Source: an uncultured Clostridia bacterium
Lineage (GTDB): Bacteria > Bacillota > Clostridia > Oscillospirales > Oscillospiraceae
NCBI GenBank assembly: GCA_947165595.1
Contig: CAMVAV010000015.1
Span: forward strand, 1-40,300
Reading direction: 5' to 3'
Length of the DNA: 40,300 nt
Part shown: one piece after another, positions 13,740 to 37,998 of the stretch
Layout of the letters: every line of letters starts with the position of its first letter
Numbering within the stretch: position 1 is the first letter of the stretch
The notes under the pieces: model-generated
Database searches by the model: none
What the model was told of the DNA's origin: nothing
The model's input: the letters and a program-made list of their open reading frames with translations, nothing else
Translations under genes and position numbers: made by a program

Positions 13740-13899
13740 GGAAGCGCTGATTAAATCAACGTGTGCGGATTGGCGAGCAGATTTTTCGTCTTGCAAGCCA
13801 AAAAGCCGCAGGAATACTAACGTATTTCAAGGATTTTTGGCGCAGTCAAGACGGAAAAGATGCCGTCAAGACGTGCGCGGGGATTTATTCAGCGCTTCC
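13740..13899. mobile_element. MITE copy 1 (160 bp), flanked by TTAG repeats
   Basis: A 160-bp element with terminal inverted repeats (GGAAGCGCTGATTAAATC at the left, the complement of GGAAGCGCTGAATAAATC at the right; one mismatch in 18). The interior is also largely self-complementary, including GCCAAAAA with TTTTTGGC, CGTCTTG with CAAGACG, and a central AATAC-taac-GTATT turn, so transcripts would form a long hairpin. TTAG occurs directly on both sides (13736-13739, 13900-13903), as expected for a target duplication. It encodes no transposase. By eye it is identical to the copy at 36368-36527. Ends and TNA/YTAR-like targets resemble IS5-family derivatives, but the parent is not in the window. 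Confidence 0.88.
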
Positions 13900-16017
13900 T
13901 TAGTAGCGAGTCAAAAACAGGGAGCCGTCCTTGCCGCTGACGCCGATGGCAAAGCGGTGCGTCTCGCCGTCCTTCGTTTGGAAGGAGACGCCGTAGTTCG
14001 GCGTGTCGCCGGGGAAACTGCCCTTGACCAGCAGCGGGCGCTCCGGCGTGAGCTCCGCCTGCCGGTAGATCTCCTTCTCGGAGAACTTGGGAGTGCCGTA
14101 GTCGTCCACGCTTTTCAGGCTGATGTCGTACAGCTTCACATCCGTCACGGTCTCGTTGGCGGCAAGGACGAAGGAAGCCGGCTGTCCCGATGTGGAGGCG
14201 GCGAACTCGTCGTGCTCCCGGAAGGAGGGCAGCAGGTTTTCCGCCCACTCCGCGTAGACCGCGCTCTGCCCGTAGCTGCCGAAGCCCTCCTTCTCCGCGA
14301 CGTTGTACAGGCCGTAGCAGGGCAGGAGCAGCGGGCGCTCGTCAAATCCCCACGCGCGGGGCATGGAGATCCAGTCGACAAAGTCCTCGGGCAGCGTTTC
14401 CAGCCACGCGCCGGGCAGATAGACCAGAATCTCGTCCGCGTTCTCCAGCCCATAGGGGCCGGAGGCAACATAGCGGATGTCGTCCTCGATCCATTCCTCG
14501 CTGTCGGTCGGCTCGACCTTCAGCTCCAGCATGCGCATCGAATAGGTGTAGTCGTCCACGCGTTTGACATTGCCGAACCTGCCGTAGAAATTGCAGACGT
14601 AGATCGTGCCGTTGGGATAGCCGGGGCCGCTGTCGCCCATGTCGCCGTCGTGGAAGTCGCCCTCGAACGTGCCGTCGCACGCGATGGAGAGCTCCGTGCT
14701 CCAGCCGCCGGCGCCGCTGAGGAACGCAAAGTCGGGCAGGGAGGCGAAGAAAAGCGTCTCGTCGACCTTCTCGCTCGTGAGCCCCAGCTTCTCGCGCAGG
14801 TGCGCGATGGCGGCGTCGCAGGTGAGCGCGGGGTTGAGCGGATAGCTGAAGGCGCCGTCGTCCGGCTCGGCGATGCTGTACTCCCACAACATGGCGTTGC
14901 GCATCAGGAGCCCCTTCGCCTGCTCCGTATCGGCGGGGACGGCGGCGTCGTACTCCGCCTGCGCGCACTCCTTGCCGTTGAGCTTGTACTCCGTGTGAAT
15001 GGTCGCGTTTTCGTAGTTCTCGTCCCAGTCCGGCCAGCTGCTGAACGAGCAGGTCAGCGCCGGCTTCATTTCGCCCGAGGCCGCGTAGTGCCTGTAGCTG
15101 CCGCTCGAGCTTTCGCCGTAATAGACGTTGTAGAGCCACAGCCCCTTGTCCGTGCCAGCCTGGAACAGGCGGTAGTTGCCGCCTCCGCCCGCCTGGCCGT
15201 CCAGCTCGCCCTGGCTGAGCAGCTCGCGCGCGCCGCTCTTTTCAAAGGTATAGACATGGAGCGTCGCGACGATGTAGAGGCCGCCATGCTCCTCGGCGGT
15301 GAGGAAGATCAGCTCCGGCTCCTGGTCGCCCCAGACGTCGGCAAAGGTGACGGGCGCCGCCGTGGCGACGGGCGTGAGCTGCTCGGTATTCTCGTTATAG
15401 TCGAGCCCCATCTGCCAGTTGTAGTGCAAAATGTCCTCGCGGTTCGCGGTCAGGACGCCGAGATACGCCTGCATCGCGCCCTGCGACATCGCCGGGACGG
15501 CGTAATCCGCCGAGACTCGGCTGAAGTCCCTGGAAAAGACCAGCGCGGTGTTGCTCGCCGCGTCGTAGTCCACCCGGAAGCCGAGCTGCGAGCCGAGGTC
15601 GCGCAGCTTGAAGAAGTTGGACCCGCCGATGTTGTAGACGGACAGCCCCGCGACCTCGCGGCCGTTGATCAGCAGCTTCTGCGCGCTGACGACCGCCGAG
15701 GCGGAGTGGTCCGTGCCGGCGTCGAGCTCGCCGCCGACGGCGGTATAGGGCTTGCCGGTGGTGACGGAGATGGTTTTGGACGCCTCGTCATAGCCCACGG
15801 CAAACTGGCTTGCCGTGCCGCTGAGCAGCTTGGCGAGGTCGCGCAGCTTGAAGTAGTTGGCGCCGTCGATGTTGTACTTCTCGCAGCTGAACGTCTTGTC
15901 GTTGACGGACAGCCTCTGCGGCGAGAGCACCACCTTTGGCGCCGCGGCGGACGCCGCAGGCAGCAGGCTGAGCGCCATCAACAGCGCCAGTGCAAGGGAA
16001 AACACGCGCTTTTTCAT
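13900..16017 (-). CDS. Secreted protein with two copper-amine-oxidase-type N-terminal stalk domains
   Basis: A 705-residue exported protein. Residues 1-24 are a signal peptide ending ASA. Two stalk-type repeats follow (about 28-92 and 105-162), each with a variant of YNIDGANYFKLRDLAKLL and a VDYD-ASNT / VGYDEASKT ending; these match the copper amine oxidase N-terminal-like domain common in Firmicute surface proteins, which has no oxidase activity itself. Residues 170-705 match no family I recognise; they contain a VWGDQEPELIFLTAEEHGG segment resembling FG-GAP/VCBS-type secreted proteins. ATG 16017 was chosen over 16062 because GGAGGAAC lies just upstream and the signal peptide starts there. 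The stop TAA (13900-13902) is within the target repeat of MITE copy 1. Likely co-transcribed with the diguanylate cyclase 52 bases upstream. Confidence 0.75.
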   Translation of the reverse strand: MKKRVFSLALALLMALSLLPAASAAAPKVVLSPQRLSVNDKTFSCEKYNIDGANYFKLRDLAKLLSGTASQFAVGYDEASKTISVTTGKPYTAVGGELDAGTDHSASAVVSAQKLLINGREVAGLSVYNIGGSNFFKLRDLGSQLGFRVDYDAASNTALVFSRDFSRVSADYAVPAMSQGAMQAYLGVLTANREDILHYNWQMGLDYNENTEQLTPVATAAPVTFADVWGDQEPELIFLTAEEHGGLYIVATLHVYTFEKSGARELLSQGELDGQAGGGGNYRLFQAGTDKGLWLYNVYYGESSSGSYRHYAASGEMKPALTCSFSSWPDWDENYENATIHTEYKLNGKECAQAEYDAAVPADTEQAKGLLMRNAMLWEYSIAEPDDGAFSYPLNPALTCDAAIAHLREKLGLTSEKVDETLFFASLPDFAFLSGAGGWSTELSIACDGTFEGDFHDGDMGDSGPGYPNGTIYVCNFYGRFGNVKRVDDYTYSMRMLELKVEPTDSEEWIEDDIRYVASGPYGLENADEILVYLPGAWLETLPEDFVDWISMPRAWGFDERPLLLPCYGLYNVAEKEGFGSYGQSAVYAEWAENLLPSFREHDEFAASTSGQPASFVLAANETVTDVKLYDISLKSVDDYGTPKFSEKEIYRQAELTPERPLLVKGSFPGDTPNYGVSFQTKDGETHRFAIGVSGKDGSLFLTRY

Positions 16018-16069
16018 CTCAGTTCCTCCTTTTTCGCACGAAACCGTGCGTTTTGATTCCACCGCTCCG

Positions 16070-17503
16070 TTATTCTCTTGCCGCCTTCATCGCGGTCTTT
16101 GCCTCATACATTGCCTGATCCGCGCGCCGGAACACCGCCTCCACGTCGTCGCCCTCCTCATAGGCGCTCATGCCGACGGCGGCGGAGTATCTGTGCCAGG
16201 GCTCCGCGTCCTCGTCGAGCGCGCTCTGCGAGAACAGCTCCCGCAGCGCGGCGCAAAGCTGCTCCCGCCTTCTGTAGTCGCGCCCCTGGAGCACCACGAC
16301 AAACTCGTCGCCCCCGACGCGGTAAATGGACGAATGCTTGAACACCTCGCAGACCATCCGGCACGCGCCGACGATGTACTCGTTGCCGTGCTCGTGCCCG
16401 TAAGCGTCGTTGACGCGCTTGAGATGGTTCAGATCGGTCATGACGATGCCGAACTCCGCGGCGTGGTTCACAATGTCCGCCTGCAGCGCGAGCGCCGCCT
16501 TGTCGTACGCAGCCTTGTTTTTCACCTTCGTCAGCGCGTCCTGATAGGCGATGGCGTTCATTTGGGACACGTGCTCCTGCAGGTCCCTCGTCTCCTTCTC
16601 CGCGTCGATCATGCCCTTGACGTAGTCCCGCATGTCGACGGAGAGCTTCGTGACCGCGTTCGCAAGGGAGCGCACCTCGTTTTGCGCGCGGATCTCCGGC
16701 ACCGTGAACAGCAGCTCGTCCGGGTCGCGCCTGCCGGTCGATTTGCCGGCAAATTCGGCGACGCTCTGCTCCAGCTGCCGCAGGGGCAGGGTCACGTTGT
16801 GCTGCATCCACAGCAGCAGCAGCAAAATGAAAAGAATGCCGGGGATCAGGATCACGGCGATGTTGATGGCGATGTTCCGATACACGGTGCGGTTGATCTC
16901 CTCGATGGCGATATCCGCGCAAAGCGTGGCGAAATGCCGCCCCTGCGAATCGATGAGCGGGCGGACCAGCGAGTAGTCCATGCCCCATTCCGAGGGGTTG
17001 ACGAAATACACGTCCTCATCCCCCATTTGAATCTCATGGAACCGGCGTATGGTCTCCTCGGGATACCAGTCCTCGCCCCATTCTCCCAGGCCGATCACGT
17101 TTTCCGGCACAAATTCCTTCTCGTAAGTGGAATTCGCCGAGCAGATCGCCACAACGCGGATCGGGTCCGATTCGATGTCCGCGGAGCAGATGTAGAGATA
17201 GTGGATATCCTCGTAGCGGTCGATGAAATCGTCAAAAAATGCCTGACAGGCAACAAATTTTTCCGATTCCTCGAAGGTCCGCGCGCACTCGGACATGTCG
17301 TCCTTGTCCACGTGCCCCTCGACATAGGTGACGACGCTCGCCAGCTCCCGCTGATAGCGCTCGTACATGGAGGAGGTATAGATGCGGTACGTCGCCGCGG
17401 AGAGGACGGCACTGAGGAGCACGACAAAGAGTACACAGGCCATCGTGACGCTGCGGTTCAGGGGGCGTATGTGCTTTTCGGCGGGTTTGCCGCTCTGCTT
17501 CAT
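16070..17503 (-). CDS. Membrane diguanylate cyclase (GGDEF) with extracytoplasmic sensor
   Basis: A 477-residue enzyme making cyclic di-GMP from GTP. Order: cytoplasmic tail; membrane segment 18-38; extracytoplasmic sensor 40-205 (dCache-like in size, with SLVRPLIDSQGRHFATLCADI before the second membrane segment, read as two adjacent blocks); membrane segment 209-233; HAMP-like linker; coiled coil about 295-315; GGDEF domain 316-475. The active site is intact: DALTKVKNK, the DLNHLKRVND metal/substrate segment, and VGGDEF at 396-401. The inhibitory RxxD site that usually precedes the motif is absent (KHSS in its place), so product feedback is unlikely. A good promoter lies upstream at 17550-17578. 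The ligand of the sensor is unknown. Confidence 0.88.
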   Translation of the reverse strand: MKQSGKPAEKHIRPLNRSVTMACVLFVVLLSAVLSAATYRIYTSSMYERYQRELASVVTYVEGHVDKDDMSECARTFEESEKFVACQAFFDDFIDRYEDIHYLYICSADIESDPIRVVAICSANSTYEKEFVPENVIGLGEWGEDWYPEETIRRFHEIQMGDEDVYFVNPSEWGMDYSLVRPLIDSQGRHFATLCADIAIEEINRTVYRNIAINIAVILIPGILFILLLLLWMQHNVTLPLRQLEQSVAEFAGKSTGRRDPDELLFTVPEIRAQNEVRSLANAVTKLSVDMRDYVKGMIDAEKETRDLQEHVSQMNAIAYQDALTKVKNKAAYDKAALALQADIVNHAAEFGIVMTDLNHLKRVNDAYGHEHGNEYIVGACRMVCEVFKHSSIYRVGGDEFVVVLQGRDYRRREQLCAALRELFSQSALDEDAEPWHRYSAAVGMSAYEEGDDVEAVFRRADQAMYEAKTAMKAARE

Positions 17504-17549
17504 ATCGGCGCCACCTCACATCCGGTCCGTTCATATTTTCGCATTTTAT

Positions 17550-17578
17550 ATTATACGCATCCGTGCGCGCAAAAGCAA
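17550..17578 (-). promoter_or_regulatory. Promoter for the diguanylate cyclase gene
   Basis: On the minus strand: TTGCTT (17578-17573), a 17-base spacer and a perfect TATAAT (17555-17550). The predicted start is about 40 bases before ATG 17503. Confidence 0.68.
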
Positions 17579-17610
17579 GTGAGAATCGCGCCGCCGCGCG
17601 AAATGGGCGC

Positions 17611-17646
17611 AAAAAAAGCGGAGCGGCCCGAAATCGGCCGCTCCGC
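17611..17646 (-). terminator. Rho-independent terminator after the metal ATPase gene
   Basis: An 11-bp stem (GGCCGCTCCGC at 17636-17646 with GCGGAGCGGCC at 17618-17628), 7-base loop, then seven T on the minus strand (17617-17611). It lies 14 bases after the ATPase stop codon. Confidence 0.88.
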
Positions 17647-17660
17647 GGGGATCCGTCGAT

Positions 17661-19550
17661 TCAGCGAAGGTACATGCAGCGGATGGCGTTGAGCACGGCA
17701 AGGACCATCACGCCCACGTCCGCAAAGATGGCGAGCCACATGCCCGCGAGCCCCAGCGCGCCGAGGGCGAGGCAGGCGAGCTTGATCCCGATGGCGAACC
17801 AGATGTTCTCCTTCACGATGCGAAGGCACTTGCGGGAGATGCGCACCGCCGTCGCGAGCTTGAGCGGATCGTCGTCCATCAGCACGACGTCCGCCGCCTC
17901 GATCGCCGCGTCCGAGCCCATCGCGCCCATGGCGATGCCGACGTCCGCGCGGGAGAGAACCGGCGCGTCGTTGATGCCGTCCCCGACGAAGGCGAGGCGC
18001 TCCCTCTCCGAGCTTCTCCCGTCCAGCAGGCGTTCCACCCGCGCGACCTTGTCCTGCGGCAGCAGCTCGCCGTGCGCCTCGTCCACGCCCAGCTCGCCGG
18101 CCACGCGCGCGGCGACCGCCTGCCGGTCCCCGGTCAGCATGACCGTGCGCGTCACGCCGCAGCCTCTGAGCGCCGCGATCGCCTGTGCGCTGTGCGGCTT
18201 GACCACGTCGGAAATGACGATGTGTCCCTCGTACTCCCCGTTGACCGCCACATGGAGGATCGTCCCGTCCCTGTGGAGCTCACACGCGCGCACCCTCGCG
18301 CCGACGCGCTCCATGAGCCTTTCGTTGCCGACCGCGGCGGCGGAGCCGTTCACCCGCGCGGTGATGCCGCAGCCCGCGACCTCCTCCACGTCCTCCACGG
18401 AGCAGCCGTCCGCCTCGTCCGGATAGGCGGCGCGCAGGGAGCTCGCGATCGGGTGCGTCGAATAGCGCTCCACATGGGCGGCCAGGTGCAGCAGCTGCCT
18501 CTCGTCCATGTGCTCGGGGTGGATCGCCGTCACCTCGAACACGCCCTTCGTCAGCGTGCCGGTCTTGTCGAAGACGACCGTTTTGACCTCCGAGAGCGTC
18601 TCGAGATAGTTGGAGCCCTTGATCAGCACGCCCTGCCGGCTCGCCCCGCCGAGTCCGGCGAAAAACGAAAGCGGAATGCTGATGACCAGGGCGCAGGGGC
18701 AGCTGATCACCAGGAAGGTCAGCGCCCGGTAGAGCCACGTCCCCCACCCCGGCGCGCGCCCGGCAAGCAGCAGGCCGAGCGGCGGCAGGAGCGCCAGCGC
18801 CAGCGCGGAGCCGACCACTGCGGGGGTGTAGACGCGCGCGAATTTTGAGATAAAGTTCTCCGAATGCGATTTGCGCGCGCTCGCGTCCTCGATCAGCTCA
18901 AGCACCTTCGAGACGGTGGACTCGCCGAATTCCTTCGTCGTACGCACGCGCAAAACGCCGGTGAGGTTGATGCAGCCGCTGACCGCCTCGTCCCCCTCCG
19001 CGACGTCCCGCGGCGCCGATTCGCCGGTCAGCGCCGCCGTATCGAGAGACGACGCGCCGCTCACCACGACGCCGTCGATGGGCACCTTCTCACCCGGCTG
19101 GACGAGGATGACCGTGCCGACCTCCACCTCGTCGGGATCGACGCGCACCGGCCGCCCGTCCTCGCCCTCGAGGTTGGCATAGTCCGGCGCGATGTCCATC
19201 AGCTCGGAGATACTCCGGCGGCTCTTGCCGACCGCGTAGCTCTGGAACCACTCGCCGATCTGATAGAACAGCATGACCGCGACAGCCTCCGCGTAGTCGC
19301 CGCTCTTCTGATACAGCGCCAGCGCGATCGCCCCGATCGTCGCGACCGCCATCAGCAGGCACTCGTCGAGCGGCTGCCGGTTTTTGATCCCCTCAAACGC
19401 CTTGCGCAGCACGTCGTATCCGACGGTCAGATAGGGGATCATATACAGCGCGAACCGCGGCGCCCCCGTGACCGGAACAAAGTGCAGCGCCGCCGTGAGC
19501 GCCGCCGCGATCAGGATGCGCGCAAGGTTTTTCTTCTGCTTCGGCTCCAT
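17661..19550 (-). CDS. cadA: P1B-2 heavy-metal-exporting ATPase (CadA/ZntA type), no N-terminal HMA domain
   Basis: A 629-residue membrane ATPase that pumps divalent soft metals (Zn, Cd, Pb) out of the cell. Marks: TGES (175-178) in the actuator domain, CPC (284-286) in the ion channel, phosphorylated Asp328 in DKTGTLT, HP (366-367), GDGINDAP (523-530), and in the last membrane segments Lys590 and Asp611 (FADVGVMVL), the pair that marks Zn/Cd/Pb rather than Cu pumps. Most relatives start with one or two HMA metal-binding domains; here the protein begins at the first membrane helices and the HMA domain is a separate gene 40 bases upstream. Copper specificity was rejected because the Cu-type C-terminal motifs are absent. 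Likely controlled by the divergent ArsR-family gene. Confidence 0.92.
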   Translation of the reverse strand: MEPKQKKNLARILIAAALTAALHFVPVTGAPRFALYMIPYLTVGYDVLRKAFEGIKNRQPLDECLLMAVATIGAIALALYQKSGDYAEAVAVMLFYQIGEWFQSYAVGKSRRSISELMDIAPDYANLEGEDGRPVRVDPDEVEVGTVILVQPGEKVPIDGVVVSGASSLDTAALTGESAPRDVAEGDEAVSGCINLTGVLRVRTTKEFGESTVSKVLELIEDASARKSHSENFISKFARVYTPAVVGSALALALLPPLGLLLAGRAPGWGTWLYRALTFLVISCPCALVISIPLSFFAGLGGASRQGVLIKGSNYLETLSEVKTVVFDKTGTLTKGVFEVTAIHPEHMDERQLLHLAAHVERYSTHPIASSLRAAYPDEADGCSVEDVEEVAGCGITARVNGSAAAVGNERLMERVGARVRACELHRDGTILHVAVNGEYEGHIVISDVVKPHSAQAIAALRGCGVTRTVMLTGDRQAVAARVAGELGVDEAHGELLPQDKVARVERLLDGRSSERERLAFVGDGINDAPVLSRADVGIAMGAMGSDAAIEAADVVLMDDDPLKLATAVRISRKCLRIVKENIWFAIGIKLACLALGALGLAGMWLAIFADVGVMVLAVLNAIRCMYLR

Positions 19551-19590
19551 CCGTTTCCCGCCTCCGCTCGTTCAGCCGCCCAAACGGCGG

Positions 19591-19809
19591 TCACAGAAAT
19601 ATCTCGCAGTCGCTCTCGACCCGCTTGCAGTTCGCGAGCACCTCGCGCATCACGGCGTCCGGGTCCGCGCCGTCCTCGAACTCCACCTTCATCTTGAGCG
19701 CCATAAAGCTGACGCTCGCCTCGCGCACGCCGGGCGTCCGGTTCGCGGCGACCTCCATCTTGTCCGCGCACGCCGCGCAGTCCACGTCGATCTTGTAAGA
19801 CTTTTTCAT
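19591..19809 (-). CDS. Stand-alone HMA metal-binding protein
   Basis: A 72-residue protein made of a single heavy-metal-associated fold (beta-alpha-beta-beta-alpha-beta). The motif DCAACADK carries the metal cysteines Cys11 and Cys14, and the acidic residue before the first cysteine (D10) fits Zn/Cd binding better than the usual copper GMTCxxC. It also has the PGVREASVSF and VEFEDGADPDAV segments of the family. It sits directly upstream of the P-type ATPase that lacks an HMA domain, in the same transcript, so it probably acts as a detached N-terminal domain or metallochaperone. The ribosome site GGGAGGAAC precedes ATG 19809. Confidence 0.87.
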   Translation of the reverse strand: MKKSYKIDVDCAACADKMEVAANRTPGVREASVSFMALKMKVEFEDGADPDAVMREVLANCKRVESDCEIFL

Positions 19810-19825
19810 ATCCGTTCCTCCCTTT

Positions 19826-19847
19826 CGATTAATTGTTTATTTAATCG
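19826..19847. promoter_or_regulatory. Candidate ArsR-family operator
   Basis: The inverted repeat CGATTAA-N8-TTAATCG lies just downstream of the minus-strand -10 box, at about +2 to +24 of the HMA/ATPase transcript. A repressor bound here would block transcription; the divergent ArsR-type gene is the obvious candidate. Confidence 0.6.
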
Positions 19848-19855
19848 TTGATTTG

Positions 19856-19884
19856 ATACTACTCCGCCGCATCGAATTTGTCAA
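19856..19884 (-). promoter_or_regulatory. Promoter for the HMA-cadA unit
   Basis: On the minus strand: a perfect TTGACA (19884-19879), a 17-base spacer and TAGTAT (19861-19856). The predicted start is near 19849, next to the candidate operator. Confidence 0.68.
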
Positions 19885-19927
19885 CCGTTTCTTTGCAAAA
19901 ATATCATTTCTTTTTTCGGGGATCGGT

Positions 19928-19945
19928 GTATAATACGTATAATAC
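19928..19945 (+). promoter_or_regulatory. Doubled -10 region upstream of the ArsR-type gene
   Basis: GTATAATAC occurs twice in tandem (19928-19936 and 19937-19945), giving two perfect TATAAT boxes at 19929-19934 and 19938-19943. The first has a TG two bases before it (19927-19928). Neither has a good -35 at 17 bases. The junction contains the palindrome ATACGTAT, which could also be a regulator contact. Confidence 0.5.
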
Positions 19946-19988
19946 GCACGGCACCCGCTTCGCGCGGGAGCGTGAGGAGGCGGATTTC

Positions 19989-20357
19989 ATGGACAAGGCT
20001 GTCAGGCTGCCGCACGAGCACAACGGAGCGGACACGCAAAAGCATATTCTGGAGGCGATGCCGCCCGAGGAGGCGATCCGCCTCGTCTCGGACGCGCTGG
20101 GACAGCTCGGCGATCCCTCCCGGCTGCGCATCTTCTGGCTGCTCTGCCACACGGAGGAGTGCGTCATGGACGTGGCGGAGTACGTCGGGATGTCCAGCCC
20201 CGCTGTGTCGCACCACCTCCGGCTTCTGAAGTCGGCGGGGCTCGTCGTCTCCCGGCGGGACGGCAAGGAGATGCTCTACCGCGCGGCGGACACCGCGCTC
20301 GCCGGCGAGCTGCACCGCGTTATCGAGCGGATCGCCGAGATCCGCTGCCCGTCGTAG
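19989..20357 (+). CDS. ArsR/SmtB-family metal-sensing repressor
   Basis: A 122-residue winged-helix repressor. The recognition region reads SSPAVSHHLRLLKSAGLV, and the wing SRRDGKEMLYRAA. The preceding helix has CHTEECVMDVAEYV, with Cys53 and Cys58 near the site where CadC/ArsR proteins hold thiolate metal ligands (ELCVCDL in ArsR/CadC). The N-terminus is histidine-containing (PHEHNG) and a last cysteine is at 120. ATG 19989 was chosen over an upstream in-frame start because GAGGAGG lies about 9 bases upstream. It is divergent from the HMA and ATPase genes, the classical layout for metal efflux, so derepression by Cd/Zn/Pb is the likely role. The terminator at 20363 follows. Confidence 0.88.
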   Translation: MDKAVRLPHEHNGADTQKHILEAMPPEEAIRLVSDALGQLGDPSRLRIFWLLCHTEECVMDVAEYVGMSSPAVSHHLRLLKSAGLVVSRRDGKEMLYRAADTALAGELHRVIERIAEIRCPS

Positions 20358-20362
20358 CGTGC

Positions 20363-20401
20363 GGGGGCGGCGCTGTATTGGCGCCGCCCCCGTCGTTTTT
20401 T
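20363..20401 (+). terminator. Rho-independent terminator after the ArsR-type gene
   Basis: An 11-bp perfect stem (GGGGGCGGCGC at 20363-20373, GCGCCGCCCCC at 20381-20391), 7-base loop, then GTCG and six T to 20401. It separates this gene from the convergent histidine kinase. Confidence 0.87.
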
Positions 20402-20410
20402 GTTTTCCGC

Positions 20411-22801: not shown

Positions 22802-22875
22802 GGCAATCCCTCACATCGTCCGTCCGCCGGACGGTTTTCCTCTCAGATGACGCGCGTCACACCCCGCGCGGCGTC

Positions 22876-24072: not shown

Positions 24073-24152
24073 AGCCCGTCCTCCTTCGTGCTGCCCGGCC
24101 GGGACGCCGCAAAAGAAACGGATATCCCGCCGCTTTTATAACATTTCATTTT

Positions 24153-24181
24153 ATTATATCTTGTATTTCGCCATACGTCAA
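24153..24181 (-). promoter_or_regulatory. Strong promoter for the FIST-kinase unit
   Basis: On the minus strand: TTGACG (24181-24176), 17 bases, a perfect TATAAT (24158-24153). The predicted start is about 75 bases before ATG 24072. This 24073-24342 gap holds no gene. Confidence 0.75.
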
Positions 24182-27911: not shown

Positions 27912-27995
27912 CTGATGTCACCGTTTCCTTTCACAGAGTAGTGTTTTTTTCGCCCCTCTCCAAGGACCGCGCCGTTTGTACGGTCCGTATTCCGT

Positions 27996-28024
27996 ATTCT
28001 ACCCCACGGCAAGCGGCATTGCAA
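27996..28024 (-). promoter_or_regulatory. Promoter for the DUF5680-like gene
   Basis: On the minus strand: TTGCAA (28024-28019), a 17-base spacer and TAGAAT (28001-27996). The predicted start is about 75 bases before ATG 27911. No comparable promoter was found for the divergent permease. Confidence 0.58.
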
Positions 28025-28053
28025 GAATTATTTGCGGGATCGAGTGGTAAGAC

Positions 28054-30447: not shown

Positions 30448-30464
30448 TCTACTTACCTCTGCTT

Positions 30465-33053
30465 TCATCTCCACGCTCCGCTTGGGAACGCCGCGGGATC
30501 GACGCTGTTGACGACGCCGCTCACCGCGATGCTCCTGAGGCTCGCGCAGCCCGCGAAGGCGTTCGCCTCGATCCGGTTTACGATGCCGGAAATGCTGAGT
30601 GCGGAGAGCGCCGTGCAGTCCTGAAACGCGCCCGTACCGATGCGGTTCACGATGCCCGGAATGGAGAACGATGTGACCGCGCAGCCCTCAAAGGCGTGAT
30701 TGCCTATGCTGCCCAGCATGGGCGGGATCTGGATAACGCGAATCTCGCTCCGGTACGCCGCCCACGGCGTCTGCGCGCCGCTCGCGTAGTCGTACATATC
30801 GCCCATGCCGCTGATCGTCAGCACGCCGCCCGAATAGCTCCAGGTGAGACTCGGCCCGCAGGCGCTCCCGCCCGGCATCGGCGTGGGCGTCGGCGTCGGT
30901 GTGGGCGTCGGCGTTTGGCTCACCGTCCAGTAGGCGTAGAGCGTCAGGTCACTGCCGGGGATGTCAAATTCGCGGACATACTGCCCGTTCCACGCATACC
31001 AGCCGGAGAACGTGTATCCGCTGCGCGTGGGCGTCGGAAGCGAACCGAACGAGCTGCCTGCCGTGACCTTTTTGGTCGTGGGCGATACCGTGCCGCCCCG
31101 CGGATCGAACGTGATGGTGTAGGTGTTCGGCGTCGGCGTGGGCGTCGGGGTCGGCGTCGGGGTCGGCGTCGGGGTGGGCGTAGGCGTCGGCGTCGGTTCG
31201 TCCGGCGTGTCGGGGACTTCGCCGTTCAGAAACGGCGTCATGTCAAGAAAGCCCGCGCCGTAGCAGGCGCTGTTGCCGAGATCGTATGCCGCCGCCTTGA
31301 GCCGCTTTTCCACCGTCGACGGAAGCAGGCTGCGGCTCTCTCCGCACAGCAAAAGCGCGGCGGCCGCCGCGACGTGCGGCGACGCCATCGACGTACCCTG
31401 CATGGAGACGTAGCCTCCGCCGGGGTAGCTGCTGACGATATCCACGCCCGGCGCGGCAAGATCGACGGCGCTGCCGTAGTTGGAGAAATAGGCGCGCCGG
31501 TAACTGCTGTCCACGGCGGAGACGGTGATCGCGCCGGAGATATGCGCGGGGCAGACATACGCGGTGTCCATGGACTCGTTGCCCGCCGCGGCGACGACGG
31601 TGACGCCCCTGGAGATCGCGTAGGAAACGGCGCTGTCCATATAGCTGCTGTGTCCGCCGCCGAGGCTGAGGTTGATGACCTTTGCGCCGTGGTCGGCGGC
31701 GTAGCGGATGCCCTGCGCGATGGTGGTGGTATAGCCGCCGTTCGGTCCCAGCACGCATACGGGCATGATCCTGATGTTCGTGCCGGGCGTGCAGTCCACA
31801 ATGGTTCCGGCGACGTGCGTGCCGTGTCCGTCCTTGTCGTCGGCATAGCTGTCGCCGCCCACAAAATCGTAGCCCGGGACGGTTCGCCCGCTCAAAAGCG
31901 GATGCGTCACGTCCGTGCCGGTGTCCACCACGGCGACGATCAGGTCGGTGTCCGCGCCGCGCCCCGCGAGAGACGAGGCGTAGGCGGCGCAGCCGGTGGC
32001 GCTCGCGCCCCAGCCGACGCTTGCCGTTCCGTAGTCCCCGGCCGCCTTCTGTATCAGCACATCCGGCTCCGCGTAACGGACATAGGAAAGCGAATCGAGA
32101 TATCCCGCGCACGCCTCGGCGTCCGCGGCGCTCGTGAACTGAATGATGGAGCAGCCGTTCGTGTCCCGCACCACCTGCGCGGCGTGATAGGCCGAAAGAT
32201 CGGGCAAAGCGGAATCCGCGCTCACGACGAGCCGCCCGGAGGCGTAGCTCGCGTCCGCGCCCGCGGTCGCGACCCTGCCGCTGTAGCTGCTCACAAGCGT
32301 CATCGCGGCGCTGACAAAGCTCGAGGTCGTGGCTGCGGTGTAGACGGCGCCGTTGAAGGATACCTGGGTATAGCTCTCGAACGTGCCCGTGCCGTCGGTG
32401 TAGTTGGCCGTACTCTCGTACATGTAGTAGACCGTGCTGCCGCGCGTACAGGTCGTTGTGGAGAGCGCGGAGGCATTGCCGACGAGCCCCATCGACTGCG
32501 CCCACGCGGTCGCGCCCGCCGACCATGAGGCGCCGCTTGTATTGCCGCGGCTCGCGGGCTCGCCCTTTGCGCGCCACAGGAGCGTCAGAATCTGTTCCTC
32601 CGTGCAGGGCGCGCCGGGAGAGAAGGTCGCCGGGCCCGTGCCGTTCGTGATGCCCTGCTCGACCGCCCACAGCACCGCCTTGTAGTACCAGCTTCCGGGC
32701 AGGACGTCGGTGAACGGGCTTGTCAGGCTTGCCGGCTCCGGCTCTCCGGCGGCGCGGTGGAGGAACGTCATCACCTCGGCGCGGGTGCAGCCGCTGTCCG
32801 GGGAGAACGTGGTCCTGCTCGTGCCGTTGGTAATGTCGTTGACGAGCGCCCAGTCCACCGCGTCATAGTAGTAATCGTCCTCCGAAACGTCGGTGTAGTC
32901 ATACGCGCCCGTATCGCCCTCATTATCGTCGCTCTCCACGGAGCCGGGGACATAGATCGTCACGGCGCGCGCGTTCACGATCCCCGCGCACGGCAGGGCG
33001 AACAGCAGCGCGAGCGTCAGCAGCAGGGACGCCGCCTTCCGGCTCCGTTTCAT
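30465..33053 (-). CDS. Cell-surface subtilisin (S8) with N-terminal SLH, InlB-type and BspA-type repeats
   Basis: An 862-residue secreted serine peptidase. Order: signal peptide 1-30; SLH repeats 52-98, 113-160 and a weaker third about 172-212; propeptide-like region about 222-335; catalytic domain 365-605 with Asp377 (VVDTGTD), His410 (DGHGTHVAGT), oxyanion Asn492 (AAGNES) and Ser555 (GTSMASPHVA); Thr-Pro linker 621-642; InlB/Listeria-Bacteroides repeat 645-710 (ITFDPRGG to TLYAYW); second Thr-Pro linker 714-727; BspA-type leucine-rich repeats about 738-862. Catalytic residues are complete, so it should be active. SLH repeats lie before the propeptide. ATG 33053 has AAGGAGGAT upstream and is 18 bases from the LURP-one-related gene, so it is likely the last gene of that operon. 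It converges on the FtsX permease with only 17 bases between stops. Confidence 0.9.
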   Translation of the reverse strand: MKRSRKAASLLLTLALLFALPCAGIVNARAVTIYVPGSVESDDNEGDTGAYDYTDVSEDDYYYDAVDWALVNDITNGTSRTTFSPDSGCTRAEVMTFLHRAAGEPEPASLTSPFTDVLPGSWYYKAVLWAVEQGITNGTGPATFSPGAPCTEEQILTLLWRAKGEPASRGNTSGASWSAGATAWAQSMGLVGNASALSTTTCTRGSTVYYMYESTANYTDGTGTFESYTQVSFNGAVYTAATTSSFVSAAMTLVSSYSGRVATAGADASYASGRLVVSADSALPDLSAYHAAQVVRDTNGCSIIQFTSAADAEACAGYLDSLSYVRYAEPDVLIQKAAGDYGTASVGWGASATGCAAYASSLAGRGADTDLIVAVVDTGTDVTHPLLSGRTVPGYDFVGGDSYADDKDGHGTHVAGTIVDCTPGTNIRIMPVCVLGPNGGYTTTIAQGIRYAADHGAKVINLSLGGGHSSYMDSAVSYAISRGVTVVAAAGNESMDTAYVCPAHISGAITVSAVDSSYRRAYFSNYGSAVDLAAPGVDIVSSYPGGGYVSMQGTSMASPHVAAAAALLLCGESRSLLPSTVEKRLKAAAYDLGNSACYGAGFLDMTPFLNGEVPDTPDEPTPTPTPTPTPTPTPTPTPTPTPNTYTITFDPRGGTVSPTTKKVTAGSSFGSLPTPTRSGYTFSGWYAWNGQYVREFDIPGSDLTLYAYWTVSQTPTPTPTPTPTPMPGGSACGPSLTWSYSGGVLTISGMGDMYDYASGAQTPWAAYRSEIRVIQIPPMLGSIGNHAFEGCAVTSFSIPGIVNRIGTGAFQDCTALSALSISGIVNRIEANAFAGCASLRSIAVSGVVNSVDPAAFPSGAWR
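30873..30914. repeat. Thr-Pro coding repeat, second linker of the subtilisin
   Basis: A short GC-rich repeat of the GTCGGC/GTGGGC type encoding residues 714-727 (Thr-Pro alternation ending Met-Pro). It links the InlB-type repeat to the leucine-rich repeats. Confidence 0.75.
31128..31193. repeat. Thr-Pro coding repeat, main linker of the subtilisin
   Basis: Eleven Thr-Pro pairs (residues 621-642) written in near-identical 6-base units. The tract can change length in frame and would form an extended, protease-resistant spacer after the catalytic domain. Confidence 0.8.
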
Positions 33054-33071
33054 GGCGTCATCCTCCTTTTT

Positions 33072-34352
33072 TCAGTCTCTGTCCGTCTCCCGGAAGCTTT
33101 GGAGCATCACCGTCAGCGTCGCCAGCAGCGCCACGCGCTGCGGCTCGAACGCCGTGATGATGAAGTTGTCATAGACCGTGTCGCGGAACGTGAGCGCCAT
33201 GCGCTCGCTGATCGTGCCGATGAGGTAGTCGTTGAGATAGACCACGAACTGGTCGCCGACGGTCGCGGTCAGCTCCCGCATTTCAAGCAGCCCGTCCGGC
33301 GTATCCATCTTGAAGCTCTCATGCGTGAGGTCGAACTGCTTGGCGACGCTGCCGTATTCCTCACCGCGGCGGTAAACGTCGTAATGCGGCAGGGCGTGAA
33401 GCAGGCGGCGCGTGATCCGGAACTCCTCCCCGCCGGTTTCCGCGTCGGTGAGCGTGAACGTGAGAAACGGGATCGAGCCGTGCAGATAATAGCGCACGTT
33501 GCCGTCGAGGTCCTGCAGCTCGTAGTCCTTTTCCGTGATGGCAAACTGCTCGTTGAAGATATAGACGTCGGGGCGCAGGGAGCGGAAGCCGTCGAGGAAT
33601 TTGCACGCCGCGACATGATCGACGGCATAATCCTCGAACATATTCCAGTAGAAGTCCGGCAGCAGCATCGCGGTCAGGTGGTAGAGCTGCCCCAGCTCGT
33701 CCATGTCACGGTCCCAGGAGGTCGTTACCCTGTGCTTCTCCGCTTCGTCCGCGTCGAGCCAGGAAACGTCGTCGCACTCGCTGACCGTGAACTCGCCCGT
33801 GTGATACCAGCAGTAGAGAAAGCTGCCCGAGAGCGTGGGACCGTAGATCATGCACGGATCGTCGATGGACTGCACCTTGCCCATCCACGGGAAGCCGAGC
33901 GGCGTTTCGACCGTCTCAAAGGCGCGGAACACCTCGTCCAGCGGCGCCGCCATGGACGGCACCTGCTTCATGCTGTCCATCGTTTTGTTGTAGGTCCTGG
34001 CGTCCGAGATCGTCCACGCGGTGATGCCCTCGATGAGCAGCAGCGTTCCGGCAATAATCGACCTCTCGCTGAGCTCGTCCTTCCAGCAGATGAAAACGGC
34101 GAGGACAATCAGCACCACAGAGGCCGTGCGCAGAAAAATGCGCTTGCCCTTGACAAAGGCGTCGCCCGTGGGGCCGTTGAACGCGCTGCCCATCCAATAC
34201 GCGCCGATGCAGAAGACGAACGCGGACACGCACAGGAGGAGCCATGACAGCAGATTGACATCTTTCGGCTGCAAAAACAGCAGGCCGTAGCTCGCCAGCA
34301 GCAAAAGGAGGCCGCTGAGCAGCTTTTTCAGTTTGATCGTCGTCTTTTCCAT
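33072..34352 (-). CDS. Four-segment membrane protein with C-terminal LURP-one-related (tubby-like) domain
   Basis: A 426-residue protein. Four membrane segments lie at 9-27, 34-54, 72-90 and 97-117. Residues 120-260 are of unknown type. Residues 263-423 follow the LURP-one-related/tubby C-terminal pattern of repeated beta hairpins around a helix: IFNEQFAITEKDYELQDLDG, then a second hairpin with FLTFTLTDAETG, ITRRLLHALPHYDVYRRGEE, SFKMDTPDGLLEM, ending with FIITAFEPQRVALLATLTVM. The fold is shared with phospholipid scramblases and tubby, but bacterial members have no known reaction. ATG 34352 was chosen over a much longer frame because GGAGGAAG lies upstream and the membrane segments begin there. 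It shares its C-terminal architecture with the next gene upstream. Confidence 0.75.
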   Translation of the reverse strand: MEKTTIKLKKLLSGLLLLLASYGLLFLQPKDVNLLSWLLLCVSAFVFCIGAYWMGSAFNGPTGDAFVKGKRIFLRTASVVLIVLAVFICWKDELSERSIIAGTLLLIEGITAWTISDARTYNKTMDSMKQVPSMAAPLDEVFRAFETVETPLGFPWMGKVQSIDDPCMIYGPTLSGSFLYCWYHTGEFTVSECDDVSWLDADEAEKHRVTTSWDRDMDELGQLYHLTAMLLPDFYWNMFEDYAVDHVAACKFLDGFRSLRPDVYIFNEQFAITEKDYELQDLDGNVRYYLHGSIPFLTFTLTDAETGGEEFRITRRLLHALPHYDVYRRGEEYGSVAKQFDLTHESFKMDTPDGLLEMRELTATVGDQFVVYLNDYLIGTISERMALTFRDTVYDNFIITAFEPQRVALLATLTVMLQSFRETDRD

Positions 34353-34374
34353 AATATGTCTTCCTCCCAATGCG

Positions 34375-34406
34375 GCATACTGCCCCGGCTCTCCGGAGCA
34401 GTATGC
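34375..34406 (-). other. Stem-loop between the two LURP-one-related genes
   Basis: GCATACTGC (34375-34383) pairs with GCAGTATGC (34398-34406) around a GC-rich 14-base loop that can itself pair in part. No T-tract follows on the minus strand, so it is probably a processing or stability element within the operon rather than a terminator. Confidence 0.5.
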
Positions 34407-34416
34407 TGAGTCAGAA

Positions 34417-35343
34417 TCAGTCGCTGCTTCTCTCCTCGGCCTTCTTGAGCGCCTCGACGATGGCGGCGATTGCCACGATGATGTTGACGTTGCTCTTGCT
34501 GAAGGACTCGATGCGATAGCAGTTCGCCCAGAACGTCGCTTCCTTGTCCACCGTGCCGATGGTCTCGTCGCCGAGCAGGATGTCGAAGCAGTAGGCAAGC
34601 ATGTCGCCCTTGATGGTCAGCTCCCTGCCGCCGACCTTGCCCGCGATCTCGGTCTTGGTGAGCTTGAGCTTCTTCCTGAAGTTCGCGATCTCTTTCTTGC
34701 CCTCGAACACGTTGTACTCCGGCATGACGGAGATGAGCTTCTTCTTGACGACCATGATCTCGTTTTCCTGCGCGTCCAGAATCTTATAGGCGGTATCGAG
34801 CATGTTGCTCTCGATGAAGTACGCGGGCTCGTGATCCGCCGTGAAGAGCGTATAGCGGTCCTTGAGGGAAAGCTCCAGCTTCTCCTCCATGTAGAGCTTG
34901 ACGGAATTGCCGGATTCGGCGCGCACGGCGGTCTTGGTCTCGGTCACCGCCTTGCCGGCGAGAAGGCTGTCCAGCACGCTCTGCAGCTCCTCGATCGCGC
35001 GGTTGACCCTGCCGGTGTCGGCGTCGGTGCCGTCGCCGAAAGCGCCGCCGAGCGCGCCCAGCATCGCGGTGCCGGTCGCGCCGGGCTTGGGAACGGAGCC
35101 GGCGACGATCTTCTTCTCGTCCGCCCTGATGTAAACGTCGGAAACCTCGCTCACGCCGTCAAAGACGACCGCCTCGGCGTCCTTGCCCATGAGCTTGACG
35201 GTTCCCAGCTTCGGTGTGCCGAGAGAGGTGGTGACGCCGGAGAGCTTTCCCAGCAGGTCCGTGTTGGTCCAGCCCTTTACGTTGTCAAACTTCTTGTAGC
35301 CGGTCAGGTTATCGTTGCCGGTCAGTTTACCAAAGAGCCCCAT
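34417..35343 (-). CDS. Soluble LURP-one-related (tubby-like) protein
   Basis: A 308-residue protein with no signal peptide. Residues 1-145 contain a Gly-rich stretch (ATGTAMLGALGGAFGDGTD) that could insert weakly in a membrane but is not a clear membrane segment. Residues 148-300 form a LURP-one-related domain: LYMEEKLELSLKDRYTLFTA, AYFIESNMLDTAYKILDAQE, VVKKKLISVMPEYNVFEGKK, the LKLTKTEIAGKVGG hairpin, and the final hydrophobic helix VNIIVAIAAIVEALKK. ATG 35343 follows GGGAGGAAAG and the longer in-frame start was rejected for lack of a site. It is the second gene of a four-gene minus-strand unit. Its role is unknown; the fold suggests lipid or membrane binding. Confidence 0.75.
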   Translation of the reverse strand: MGLFGKLTGNDNLTGYKKFDNVKGWTNTDLLGKLSGVTTSLGTPKLGTVKLMGKDAEAVVFDGVSEVSDVYIRADEKKIVAGSVPKPGATGTAMLGALGGAFGDGTDADTGRVNRAIEELQSVLDSLLAGKAVTETKTAVRAESGNSVKLYMEEKLELSLKDRYTLFTADHEPAYFIESNMLDTAYKILDAQENEIMVVKKKLISVMPEYNVFEGKKEIANFRKKLKLTKTEIAGKVGGRELTIKGDMLAYCFDILLGDETIGTVDKEATFWANCYRIESFSKSNVNIIVAIAAIVEALKKAEERSSD

Positions 35344-35426
35344 TTTTCTTTCCTCCCAAAAAACGATTTCATTTTTCAGCGGGCGGCTCCGCCCCCTGTT
35401 AAGATGCTTTTCGCAAATACGCGCGC

Positions 35427-36287
35427 TTACCAGTCCGAATCCCAATCCGTATCGGAGCTGTCCCAGCTGCTCCAGCTGTCGTCGCTGCTGTCCCAATCGT
35501 AATCGTCGTAGCTGCTGTCAGAGTCGAAAAGGCCGGAGAAAAAGTCGTTATTCTCCTCATAGTAGCCGCTGCCGGAGAAGTCGGGCAAGACGTAGCGGCT
35601 GTCGTAATCCTCGCTCTGATAGTAGTCGTCGTAGTCCTCCTCCAGCGCCTCCGGCACCTCGTAGGTCTGCTCCCAATCGTCCGAGAGCGCGTCGTAGAGA
35701 TACCAGCTGTGGTCCTGGTAGTAATAGGTATCGTCCTGATACCGGTAATAGCCCCTGTCCGGCGTGCTTCCGATCCAGCGAAAGATCAGCACCGCGGCCA
35801 GCACGATCAGGATCGGCTTCCAGAAGGCGAGAATCGCGCCCACGAATATCTGCCACGCCTTTAACGGCTCGCCGTCGTCGGGCGTTTCCCGCACGCCGCG
35901 CGTCGGAGCGTCCGGCACGGGACCGCCGCGCCGCAGGTCCGTTTCGGATTTGAGCTTCTCGTAAATCTCGCGTACCGCGTGCTTTTCATCCGTCCCCTCG
36001 TAGCGGACGGCGCGGCTGCCGTCCGCCTTGTTCTTGTAGACGACGCAGGTGCCGTCCTCGCGTTTGAAGATGCCGAAGGCGCGCGCGCCCCGAAAGTCCT
36101 CGCCGATAAAGAAGCGCATCGCATCAAGCGGCATCTTGTGCTCGGCGCAGAACGCTTGCAGCTCCTCGATGGTCTCGGGGATCTTCGTGAGGCGGATATC
36201 CTCATGCTGCTCCGCGCCGCAGTACGGGCAGGTCGTCGCGTCGGGCGCAAGCGGCTTGCCGCAGGCCTCGCAAATATGAATAGACAT
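35427..36287 (-). CDS. Zinc-ribbon membrane protein with acidic aromatic C-terminal tail
   Basis: A 286-residue protein. Residues 5-24 form a zinc ribbon: Cys6, Cys9, Cys20, Cys23 (ICEACGKPL then TTCPYCGAE). Residues 30-130 are soluble and unassigned. One membrane segment lies at 145-170 (WQIFVGAILAFWKPILIVL). The last 110 residues are a low-complexity tail of Tyr, Asp, Glu, Ser and Trp ending in repeated DS and SW pairs with a DSDW terminus; it has essentially no positive charges after residue 231. Topology would put the ribbon inside and the tail outside. ATG 36287 was chosen over an upstream in-frame start because GGGAGAG precedes it. It is first in a four-gene unit (then two LURP-one-related genes and the subtilisin). 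I recognise no function. Confidence 0.7.
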   Translation of the reverse strand: MSIHICEACGKPLAPDATTCPYCGAEQHEDIRLTKIPETIEELQAFCAEHKMPLDAMRFFIGEDFRGARAFGIFKREDGTCVVYKNKADGSRAVRYEGTDEKHAVREIYEKLKSETDLRRGGPVPDAPTRGVRETPDDGEPLKAWQIFVGAILAFWKPILIVLAAVLIFRWIGSTPDRGYYRYQDDTYYYQDHSWYLYDALSDDWEQTYEVPEALEEDYDDYYQSEDYDSRYVLPDFSGSGYYEENNDFFSGLFDSDSSYDDYDWDSSDDSWSSWDSSDTDWDSDW

Positions 36288-36367
36288 GGTTTTCTCTCCC
36301 AAATCGTCGCGTCCGCGCGAAGCGGCGCCCGGAATAGCCGCCGGCAAAAACGGCGGCGCTTTTCTTA

Positions 36368-36527
36368 GGAAGCGCTGATTAAATCAACGTGTGCGGATTG
36401 GCGAGCAGATTTTTCGTCTTGCAAGCCAAAAAGCCGCAGGAATACTAACGTATTTCAAGGATTTTTGGCGCAGTCAAGACGGAAAAGATGCCGTCAAGAC
36501 GTGCGCGGGGATTTATTCAGCGCTTCC
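36368..36527. mobile_element. MITE copy 2 (160 bp), flanked by CTTA repeats
   Basis: By eye identical over 160 bp to the element at 13740-13899, in the same orientation. CTTA is repeated on both sides (36364-36367 and 36528-36531). The right repeat contains the stop codon of the phosphoesterase paralogue (TAA, 36531-36529 on the minus strand). The identity of two copies 22.6 kb apart suggests recent movement. Confidence 0.88.
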
Positions 36528-36528
36528 C

Positions 36529-37998
36529 TTATTCGCGGATGATAAGGCGCGGCTCGCCGTCGTACTTGACGAGCTCGTGGCTGGTGAAGTATTCCTCCAG
36601 CACGTTCGGGCACTTCGTGGCGACCTCGAGCGGCTGGCCGTTCTTCTCGATCTCCTCGCGCGGGATGCCCAAAAACTCGCCGATGCTGAGGAAGTGATAG
36701 CGCTGCATGGCGACGGTGAACCGGTCGCCGTCCTCCACCTCCCTGCCGTTCATCCTGAGCGAGAGGATGGAATGCGTCGGACGGTCAAACTCGCAGCAAA
36801 AGCCCCGGGAGAACTGATACCACTCGTTGTGCTCGCTGTCGAGGAAGGATTCCTCGCGCAGCATATACTTCACGACGCGGCGGAGCTGCTCGCCCGTGAG
36901 GATAAACGAATACACGGGATCGCCGAACGGGAATATCTCCATGTAGTCCTTGAGCGTGACGATGGGGCCGAGCGCGGGCTTGCGGATGCTGCCGGACGCG
37001 AGGAGCACGAGGTCGACGCCGAGCTGCTCGCGCATCCCCTCCGCCATGAGGTCGCCGAGCTCTGTTTCCATGTTGCGGCGCGGGTGCGTATACGCGCGCG
37101 GGAAGCGGGTGAGGATGCGGCCGTACTTCTTGTCGGTCACGTCCTTATACTTGTTGATGACCTCCTCCAGCGCCGTATCGCGCGGGCAGTTGTCCGCCGT
37201 GATGGGGATGCACTGCCAGGTGTAGGAGTCGATGCAGTTGTTGTCGGCGTCGACCATGATGTCGAAGCGGCCGATCTGATCCGTGCCGATGGCGGCCTGC
37301 ACAATGGGGATACCCGCGACCTCGCACGGCTCGGAGAGCAGCGTGTGGCTGTGACCGCCGATGATGATGTCCACGCCCCACGCGGGATCGAGCGCGGCGG
37401 CAAGCTTCTTGTCCTCCTCAAAGCCGATGTGCGTCAAAAGCACCGTAAAGTCAATGTCGGTCGTGCGGTAGGCGTCGCAGATCTTGCCGACCTCCTGCGC
37501 CGCGTCGTTGATGTCGACCATCGTGCCGATGAGTCCCTCGTTCTTGGTGCTCGCGAGCACGTCCTGCGTCAGAATGCCGATGAACAGCACGCGCATGCCG
37601 TCGATCTCCTTGATGAAGTGGGAGCGGAACAGGCGAACGCCGTTGAGCTTTAAGTACATATTGGCGTTGATGATCGGGAAGGTCGCGCACTTTTCGATGA
37701 ACAGCAGATGCGCGAGGCCGTAATCCACCTCATGGTTGCCGAGCGTCACGACGTCGGGCGCGAGCAGGTTCATGATCTCGATGGTGGAGATGCCCTGAAA
37801 CTCGCTGTCGATGAGAGAGCCGCGGAACATATCGCCGGAGATGGTGTAGATGACGTTCTTTTCCTCATTGCGGACCTTGTTGACGTAGCCGGAGAGCCGG
37901 GACACGCCGCCGATGAGGTTTTCGTCCACCTGCTCGGCGAGAAAATCGCCGTGGAGATCGTTGGAGTGCAGGATCGTGAGCTTTTTGAGGTTTTTCAT
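36529..37998 (-). CDS. Second cytoplasmic 5'-nucleotidase-family metallophosphoesterase
   Basis: A 489-residue paralogue of the protein at 10484-11947, with the same motif set: HSNDLHGDF, GDMFRGS, GNHEVDYG, LLTHIGFEEDKKLAA and GGHSHT, and a C-terminal 5'-nucleotidase domain carrying METELGDLMAEGM and SGSIRKPA. No signal peptide. ATG 37998 was chosen over 38040 because AGGGAG lies about 10 bases upstream and the paralogue starts at the same residue. By eye the two share roughly 60% identity, which is lower than the DNA identity of the MITEs, so this duplication is older. Its promoter region holds a palindrome over the -10 box. MITE copy 2 sits at its stop codon. Confidence 0.88.
   Translation of the reverse strand: MKNLKKLTILHSNDLHGDFLAEQVDENLIGGVSRLSGYVNKVRNEEKNVIYTISGDMFRGSLIDSEFQGISTIEIMNLLAPDVVTLGNHEVDYGLAHLLFIEKCATFPIINANMYLKLNGVRLFRSHFIKEIDGMRVLFIGILTQDVLASTKNEGLIGTMVDINDAAQEVGKICDAYRTTDIDFTVLLTHIGFEEDKKLAAALDPAWGVDIIIGGHSHTLLSEPCEVAGIPIVQAAIGTDQIGRFDIMVDADNNCIDSYTWQCIPITADNCPRDTALEEVINKYKDVTDKKYGRILTRFPRAYTHPRRNMETELGDLMAEGMREQLGVDLVLLASGSIRKPALGPIVTLKDYMEIFPFGDPVYSFILTGEQLRRVVKYMLREESFLDSEHNEWYQFSRGFCCEFDRPTHSILSLRMNGREVEDGDRFTVAMQRYHFLSIGEFLGIPREEIEKNGQPLEVATKCPNVLEEYFTSHELVKYDGEPRLIIRE

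Follow-up and report, generated by a model that had tools for sequence, protein, structure and literature searches.

The 40,300-nt window analysed here, positions 1 to 40,300 of contig CAMVAV010000015.1 of an uncultured Clostridia bacterium of the Oscillospiraceae (assembly GCA_947165595.1), carries two copies of a 160-bp miniature inverted-repeat transposable element (MITE), each lying directly against the TAA stop of a gene on the minus strand. The locus raises the question of what moves this element, why it is found at stop codons and which part of it is conserved. Our answer, which we hold to be probable, is that it is a non-autonomous MITE moved by transposases of the IS5 family of insertion sequences (ISs), with a core conserved across the order, ends that change and a plus strand that is kept foldable.

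The two copies and their family within the genome

The window is contig 15 of a metagenome-assembled genome (MAG) of 2.83 Mb in 165 contigs, estimated to be 78% complete. Comparison of the window sequence gives 100% identity between the two elements over 160 bp, in a shared orientation, with flanking 4-bp repeats TTAG and CTTA. The preliminary description of this window had reported these features and had placed a minus-strand TAA stop in the right repeat of each copy; direct reading of the sequence confirmed both statements, and both open reading frames (ORFs) concerned are called as genes. The parts are as follows.

13740..13899, plus: MITE copy 1, 160 bp; the plus strand is the one that folds as one continuous hairpin
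36368..36527, plus: MITE copy 2, 160 bp, identical in sequence to copy 1
13736..13739, unstranded: left target repeat of copy 1 (locus L013), TTAG, read from the sequence
13900..13903, unstranded: right target repeat of copy 1, TTAG, including the TAA stop (13900-13902) of a minus-strand ORF
36364..36367, unstranded: left target repeat of copy 2 (locus L012), CTTA, read from the sequence
36528..36531, unstranded: right target repeat of copy 2, CTTA, including the TAA stop (36529-36531) of a minus-strand ORF
13740..13757, plus: left terminal inverted repeat of copy 1, an IS5-like end, GGAAGCGCTGATTAAATC
13882..13899, minus: right terminal inverted repeat of copy 1, GGAAGCGCTGAATAAATC
13807..13831, plus: conserved core of copy 1, CGCAGGAATACTAACGTATTTCAAG, predicted to form an apical stem-loop whose GCA/AA internal loop is conserved
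36435..36459, plus: conserved core of copy 2, placed by identity with copy 1
13781..13858, plus: inner domain of copy 1, covariance model R1, 74 bits (the copy itself is in the R1 alignment, as L013)
36409..36486, plus: inner domain of copy 2, covariance model R1, 74 bits
13900..16062, minus: ORF ending (TAA) in the copy 1 target repeat; its start is uncertain, the gene caller placing it at 16017
36529..38040, minus: metallophosphoesterase / 5'-nucleotidase-like gene ending (TAA) in the copy 2 target repeat; called start 37998

The 18-bp ends pair with one mismatch, and the whole element is a single long imperfect palindrome that folds far better on the plus strand. The genome-wide search for further copies that had been suggested, with their target repeats tabulated, returned 23 full-length copies, 18 of them identical to the query and five differing by one or two changes, besides partial ones on contigs C43, C39, C21 and C82, so that the resemblance of the window pair is no accident. 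Exact 4-bp target repeats flank all full copies except L002, whose repeat is imperfect (22/23). YTAR is a mark of IS5-family targets, as the preliminary description also stated, and 14 of the 23 repeats have this form (TTAG, TTAA, CTAG, CTAA), while eight do not (CTAT/ATAG, GTAG, TTTA/TAAA or CTTA). The element thus has the features of a MITE, being short (160 bp) and non-coding, with inverted ends, target duplication and multiple near-identical copies, and without a transposase inside. A 48-bp short form was also observed at G000:C9:33216-33263, in which both 18-bp ends are intact and the interior is gone.

An interior conserved across the order, with differing ends

MITEs are normally grouped by their ends, and their interior is taken as filler. 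Sequence comparison indicates that the present element belongs to an order-wide family recognised by its interior and not by its ends, a type II MITE family with the conserved interior CGCAGGAATACTnnnGTATTTCAAG. The core pattern CGCAGGAATACTN(2-4)GTATTTCAAG, searched in named GTDB genomes, occurs in at least 119 stretches. The titles of most of the 80 loci listed among these name Oscillospiraceae, Ruminococcus, Clostridia or Clostridiales, and gut or rumen is a frequent source; one title names Bacteroides and one Bacillota. The elements around the core measure about 150-172 bp; in most of them the left arm spans 66-69 nt and the right arm either 66-69 or 79 nt.

The covariance model R1, built on the inner 78 nt and applied with thresholds that differ by sample, found the inner domain in 54 of 120 sampled genomes and 51 of 106 genera of the own family (E 1e-4), and in 86 of 295 genomes and 48 of 148 genera of the order (E 1e-6). 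Across the phylum only three of 299 sampled genomes matched (E 1e-7), namely the own genome, a second from its family and a third from a different family. Copy numbers per genome reach at least 39. A whole-element search gave 10 elements; in all but L064 the core is conserved to a higher degree (0.80-0.92) than the arms (0.62-0.88). No plasmid carriage was found at E 1e-5, and the core reaches phages, rarely, being present in one GenBank record and three viral contigs. The inner domain lies at positions 305-382 of the former, a human-faecal phage record (L251), and in the IMG/VR contigs L129, L130 and L131, in two of which the match is cut by the contig end. Open PMC text yielded no report of the family, with subscription journals, bioRxiv and ISfinder lying outside that search, and the core string gave one unrelated paper there.

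The ends of the elements were set automatically and several were wrong; six bad rows were excluded from the end grouping and kept in the identity and strand counts, rows L208 and L176 were left out of the stem-change, interior/end identity, strand and end-group analyses, and the delimiting run left 16 of 110 loci without a delimited element. Among the 141 unique elements, like interiors usually carry like ends, and the interiors are 50-70% identical in about 80% of element pairs (7916/9870). This association has clear exceptions: L143 and L066 are 86% identical in their interiors and only 38% and 44% at their ends, and in one genome (G066) related interiors are joined to three types of end, of which two go with interiors 86% identical and left ends at 61%. 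Single-linkage grouping at 72% divides 135 elements into 22 end groups, the largest with 99. In genome G071, GGGTGTATTCTT.. replaces GGGTGTATCTGA.. at one end of L326 and at both ends of L330, which may be intermediates of an end change. The rumen genome RUG10904 (L161, L205, L207) holds several GGAACTGTT-type copies, some with left arms shortened or duplicated.

Preferential folding of one strand

As RNA, the plus strand of the window element is predicted to form one continuous rod of -92.9 kcal/mol (z -13.4), against -64.6 kcal/mol (z -8.1) for the minus strand. The plus fold is the more stable in all 141 unique elements, with means of -82.1 and -59.2 kcal/mol. When the left arm is aligned to the reverse complement of the right arm with a symmetric score, transition mismatches on the plus strand are G.T in 707 cases and A.C in 309, and 129 against 31 in the ends. 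Counted per cluster (n=57), G.T exceeds A.C in 47, the reverse holds in seven and three are equal; for the ends only, the figures are 38 against 4, the rest being tied, and this last result is free of the R1 structure because the ends lie outside that model. The stems beside the core vary on both sides, and in L057 and L064 the apical stem is preserved, with AATCC/GGATT instead of AATAC/GTATT. Two-sided stem changes and strand-specific wobble pairs, the marks of a structured RNA, are both present, more weakly so when elements are grouped by their ends. Selection seems to act on a single-stranded form, for which RNA is the simplest candidate.

This RNA would not be one of the catalogued kinds, since no Rfam family exceeds its gathering threshold in the window. 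The element alone, searched with E up to 10, returned only sR28 at 10.8 bits against a cut-off of 39, and ten further carrier loci gave only malK-I, in L210. Nor does co-transcription with neighbouring genes explain the strand preference, because the orientation of the elements relative to those genes is even in six other many-copy genomes (22 sense and 23 antisense; 18 and 18 with an older gene caller); the own genome has 4 sense and 9 antisense. For the same reason, if selection does act on a single-stranded form, the beneficiary is more likely the element than the adjoining gene. We suppose that the core-sense strand is kept able to fold, when single, into a rod, most likely because a transcript contributes to the persistence of the element itself; such a role for single-stranded DNA is less likely.

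Folding with DNA parameters also favours the plus strand (-47.9 versus -36.2 kcal/mol), the comparison of G.T with A.C cannot separate RNA from single-stranded DNA, and the orientation elsewhere is unbiased with respect to genes. All three would suit the alternative that the preference reflects single-stranded DNA, for example on the lagging strand or as a transposition intermediate. We nevertheless regard it as rather unlikely: G.U in RNA is better tolerated than G.T in DNA, and to our knowledge IS5-family transposition does not use single-stranded hairpins. Selection on the fold would be superfluous altogether if the G.T excess had arisen from inherited asymmetry or from a mutation bias such as C to T on one strand. 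The elements do have a common ancestry, and by end groups the excess is just 12 against 3; yet the interiors have diverged as described and the stems vary on both sides, while every one of the 141 elements still folds better on the plus strand, which makes this explanation improbable.

Insertion at stop codons

Whichever strand is read, a YTAR tetramer contains TAA or TAG. Among the 119,460 codons of 275 genes of the own genome, TTA and CTA together number 73. A 427-kb sample of this genome (the window and 20 further stretches, with an intergenic share of 11%) contains 168 YTAR sites between genes, 22 at stops and 101 inside genes. Stop codons are therefore natural harmless targets, because YTAR holds stops on both strands and is rare within the genes of this GC-rich genome. 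YTAR-like sites are available mainly between genes or at TAA/TAG stops, and insertion at a stop duplicates the stop and leaves the protein intact, so that, we propose, such copies survive purifying selection.

A genome of the same genus (G013) has the gene next to copy 2, with 94% identity across 473 bp, and there the gene finishes at that CTTA with no element present, from which it follows that the stop pre-existed; the G013 site is not a full empty site, because the other flank fails to match. For copy 1, the best relatives match the gene alone, at 72-78%. The preliminary description had argued that target preference combined with selection for harmless sites leads to stop-codon insertion, and that the target duplication preserves the stop. 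The YTAR statistics support the first argument as the main reason, and the G013 gene supports the second.

If survival were confined to harmless sites that carry these tetramers, 3.7 of the 23 copies in the own genome would be expected at stop codons; nine (L002, L004, L009, L010, L012, L013, L015, L018 and L019) lie there (P = 0.003), and seven of 21 when the two window copies are set aside (P = 0.024). The six other genomes have nine of 69 copies at stops, against a null of 21 in 263 harmless YTAR sites (8%; P = 0.10). These counts, which we prefer, come from a gene caller retrained on a cleaner ORF set, the training ORFs of the older callers having included wrong-frame ones such as 12025-13656 on the plus strand instead of the VanY gene on the opposite strand. 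With the older caller the own genome has 8 or 9 of 23 (eight called, and L002 by reading) against 3.3 expected, and the other genomes 8 of 69 (P 0.22). In the order-wide set, also with the older caller, two of 35 copies with a target repeat are at stops and five within 25 nt before one; this set comprised 63 elements, 27 of them without a target repeat and one at a locus too short. The excess is moderate in the own genome and corresponds to no clear habit of the family elsewhere. Two more copies of the own genome come close to where a called gene ends, L011 at 6 nt and L022 at 26 nt before that point. In the six other genomes, 18 of 69 copies are near a stop (30 nt or less) without touching it, a raw count from the older caller.

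These figures also bear on an adaptive view, in which the element favours the ends of genes and provides the upstream gene with a 3' end, a terminator or a 3'-UTR stabiliser. The own-genome excess, with or without the window copies, speaks in its favour, as does the great stability of the hairpin, and at 13 of 18 stop-codon copies (own genome 7/9, others 6/9) the gene reads into the right end of the element, a lean that is not significant alone. That lean would, however, place the less foldable strand in the mRNA, and the six-genome and order-wide counts do not extend the excess, so that a stop-codon niche as a family trait is not supported. The termination role fares no better: a scan around copy 1 found no terminator-like site on the element, and in the flanks of both copies, as read, the hairpin is not followed by a run of T in either direction, so that the GC-rich hairpin followed by a T run that defines an intrinsic terminator is lacking. 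We judge this adaptive view improbable. The special niche and the terminator function suggested in the preliminary description are accordingly not supported, 14 of the 23 own copies lying off stops, whereas its question of whether other copies lack a stop bias received a divided answer: the bias holds in the own genome beyond the window copies, and in the six other genomes it does not reach significance.

Probable partner insertion sequences and a probable exchange of ends

Complete ISs with the ends of the MITE, which the preliminary description proposed to look for, are present in same-genus genomes and were not found in the own genome. One of 1217 bp (L074) has ends GGAACCTCTGATTTAA and the target repeat CTAT; a second of 1221 bp (L075) has ends GGAAACGCTGATTTAA, the target repeat TTAA and an intact ORF, and L076 is a frameshifted relative 89% identical to it. 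The transposases of L074 and L075 match NCBIfam IS5_4 well above its cut-off. Together with the YTAR repeats, these ISs bear out the earlier assignment of the MITE to IS5-family ends and targets. We propose that IS5-family transposases move the MITE in trans into 4-bp YTAR-like sites. A MITE copy (L056) was also observed about 3 kb from the frameshifted IS5-type element L076, with related ends, on the same contig (G001:C53).

The similarity of the MITE to L075 and L076 is confined to the first and last 18 bp, and because only these ends are common with the IS, the MITE is of type II in the sense used in the excerpts of PMC10969869 cited here. That it is instead a type I MITE, an internal deletion of an IS5_4 element, is almost certainly wrong despite the matching 18-bp ends, since its interior has no similarity to the IS and model R1 found no core in 47 loci with transposase-domain matches, some of them fragments. 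The MITE and the IS5_4 and IS5_3 ISs have matching ends and target repeats that are YTAR-type or TA-centred, but the MITE has neither the transposase nor the IS interior.

A second end type, GCCTTGTTTGATAAATGG, resembles that of an 862-bp IS (L369) in a genome of the same taxonomic family, which has ends GGGCTTGTTTGAAAAA / GGCCTTGTTTTAAAAA and two ORFs matching NCBIfam IS5_3. By sequence, two different IS5 groups have ends resembling those on elements of one core. Because the two end groups match different IS5 groups, it can be surmised that the element has exchanged its ends as it passed between partners.

Several observations weigh against the proposal of an IS5-moved element whose core and plus-strand fold are selected. 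Elements were collected by the exact core pattern first and then by R1, so that the core conservation is partly ascertainment, and in the 10 elements of the whole-element search the core is not better kept than the ends (0.67-0.92). Grouped by end type, the mismatch comparison falls to 12 groups with more G.T, three with more A.C and seven tied (P = 0.035), in a grouping that places 99 of 135 elements in one group. The six other genomes show no orientation bias to neighbouring genes, and no promoter-like site was found around copy 1. The stop-codon excess of the own genome is larger than harmless-site survival predicts. A search of the own genome, a MAG of limited completeness, found no transposase of PF01609 or PF13586, and seven of 12 other carrier genomes gave no PF01609; we therefore infer the active partner from relatives.

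Neighbouring genes in the window

The ORF at 13900-16062 (minus), next to copy 1, has no Pfam or NCBIfam match. Positions 10485-11386 and 37096-37997 form a 902-nt inverted repeat at 75%, two probably related genes on opposite strands, namely the 5'-nucleotidase-like gene at 36529-38040 and the ORF at 10484-11947. The minus-strand ORF at 12064-13674 contains two VanY-type carboxypeptidase stretches and an internal duplication, seen as direct repeats of 300 nt at 72% and 97 nt at 88%.

Relation to known elements

The published systems are cited here from excerpts of the respective papers. PMC10969869 treats type II MITEs, of which only the ends are IS-like, together with the folding of MITE RNAs, the cutting of Correia transcripts by RNase III and IS partners. 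The present family agrees with the bacterial type II MITEs described there in its length below 500 bp, terminal repeats, target duplication, lack of an ORF, IS-like ends only and transcripts predicted to fold; it differs from them, as far as those excerpts go, in that the interior links elements of differing ends and that one strand folds much better. The Correia or NEMIS elements of Neisseria are likewise small, palindromic and mobile, with a conserved core, and their transcripts are cut by RNase III (PMC2649163, PMC10969869); they belong to Neisseria, and the excerpts contain no report of an exchange of ends between IS partners. MITEAba12 of Acinetobacter measures about 113 bp and likewise has target repeats and a partner IS; according to the excerpted account in PMC6382973, its ends are its most conserved part and both strands fold weakly (-24 and -27 kcal/mol), the reverse of what is seen here. 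The BOX, RUP and SPRITE repeats of the pneumococcus are also short, with structure at the RNA level, and are over-represented between convergent genes; they belong to another genus and other repeat families (PMC3049150). The TIME elements of Pseudomonas, non-autonomous and titled mosaic, are derived from Tn3 in the excerpted text of PMC4133298.

Meaning for the family

We tentatively put forward, as a real possibility that stops short of an expectation, that this is a selfish RNA-structured element spread across the order, whose core would persist by refitting its ends to IS5-family transposases. An RNA of its own, read in the core sense and folded as a 160-nt rod in which the internal loops are conserved, would be needed for its spread independently of host transcription units, and the G.U pairs would keep the RNA rod while the DNA stays an imperfect palindrome and avoids a perfect one. 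A TA-centred target in a GC-rich genome can yield stop-codon insertions without special targeting. That an interior is common to a bacterial order, while the ends appear to follow the partner IS, suggests selection on the interior and opens to experiment the question whether some MITEs are RNA (or single-stranded DNA) elements that borrow transposases.

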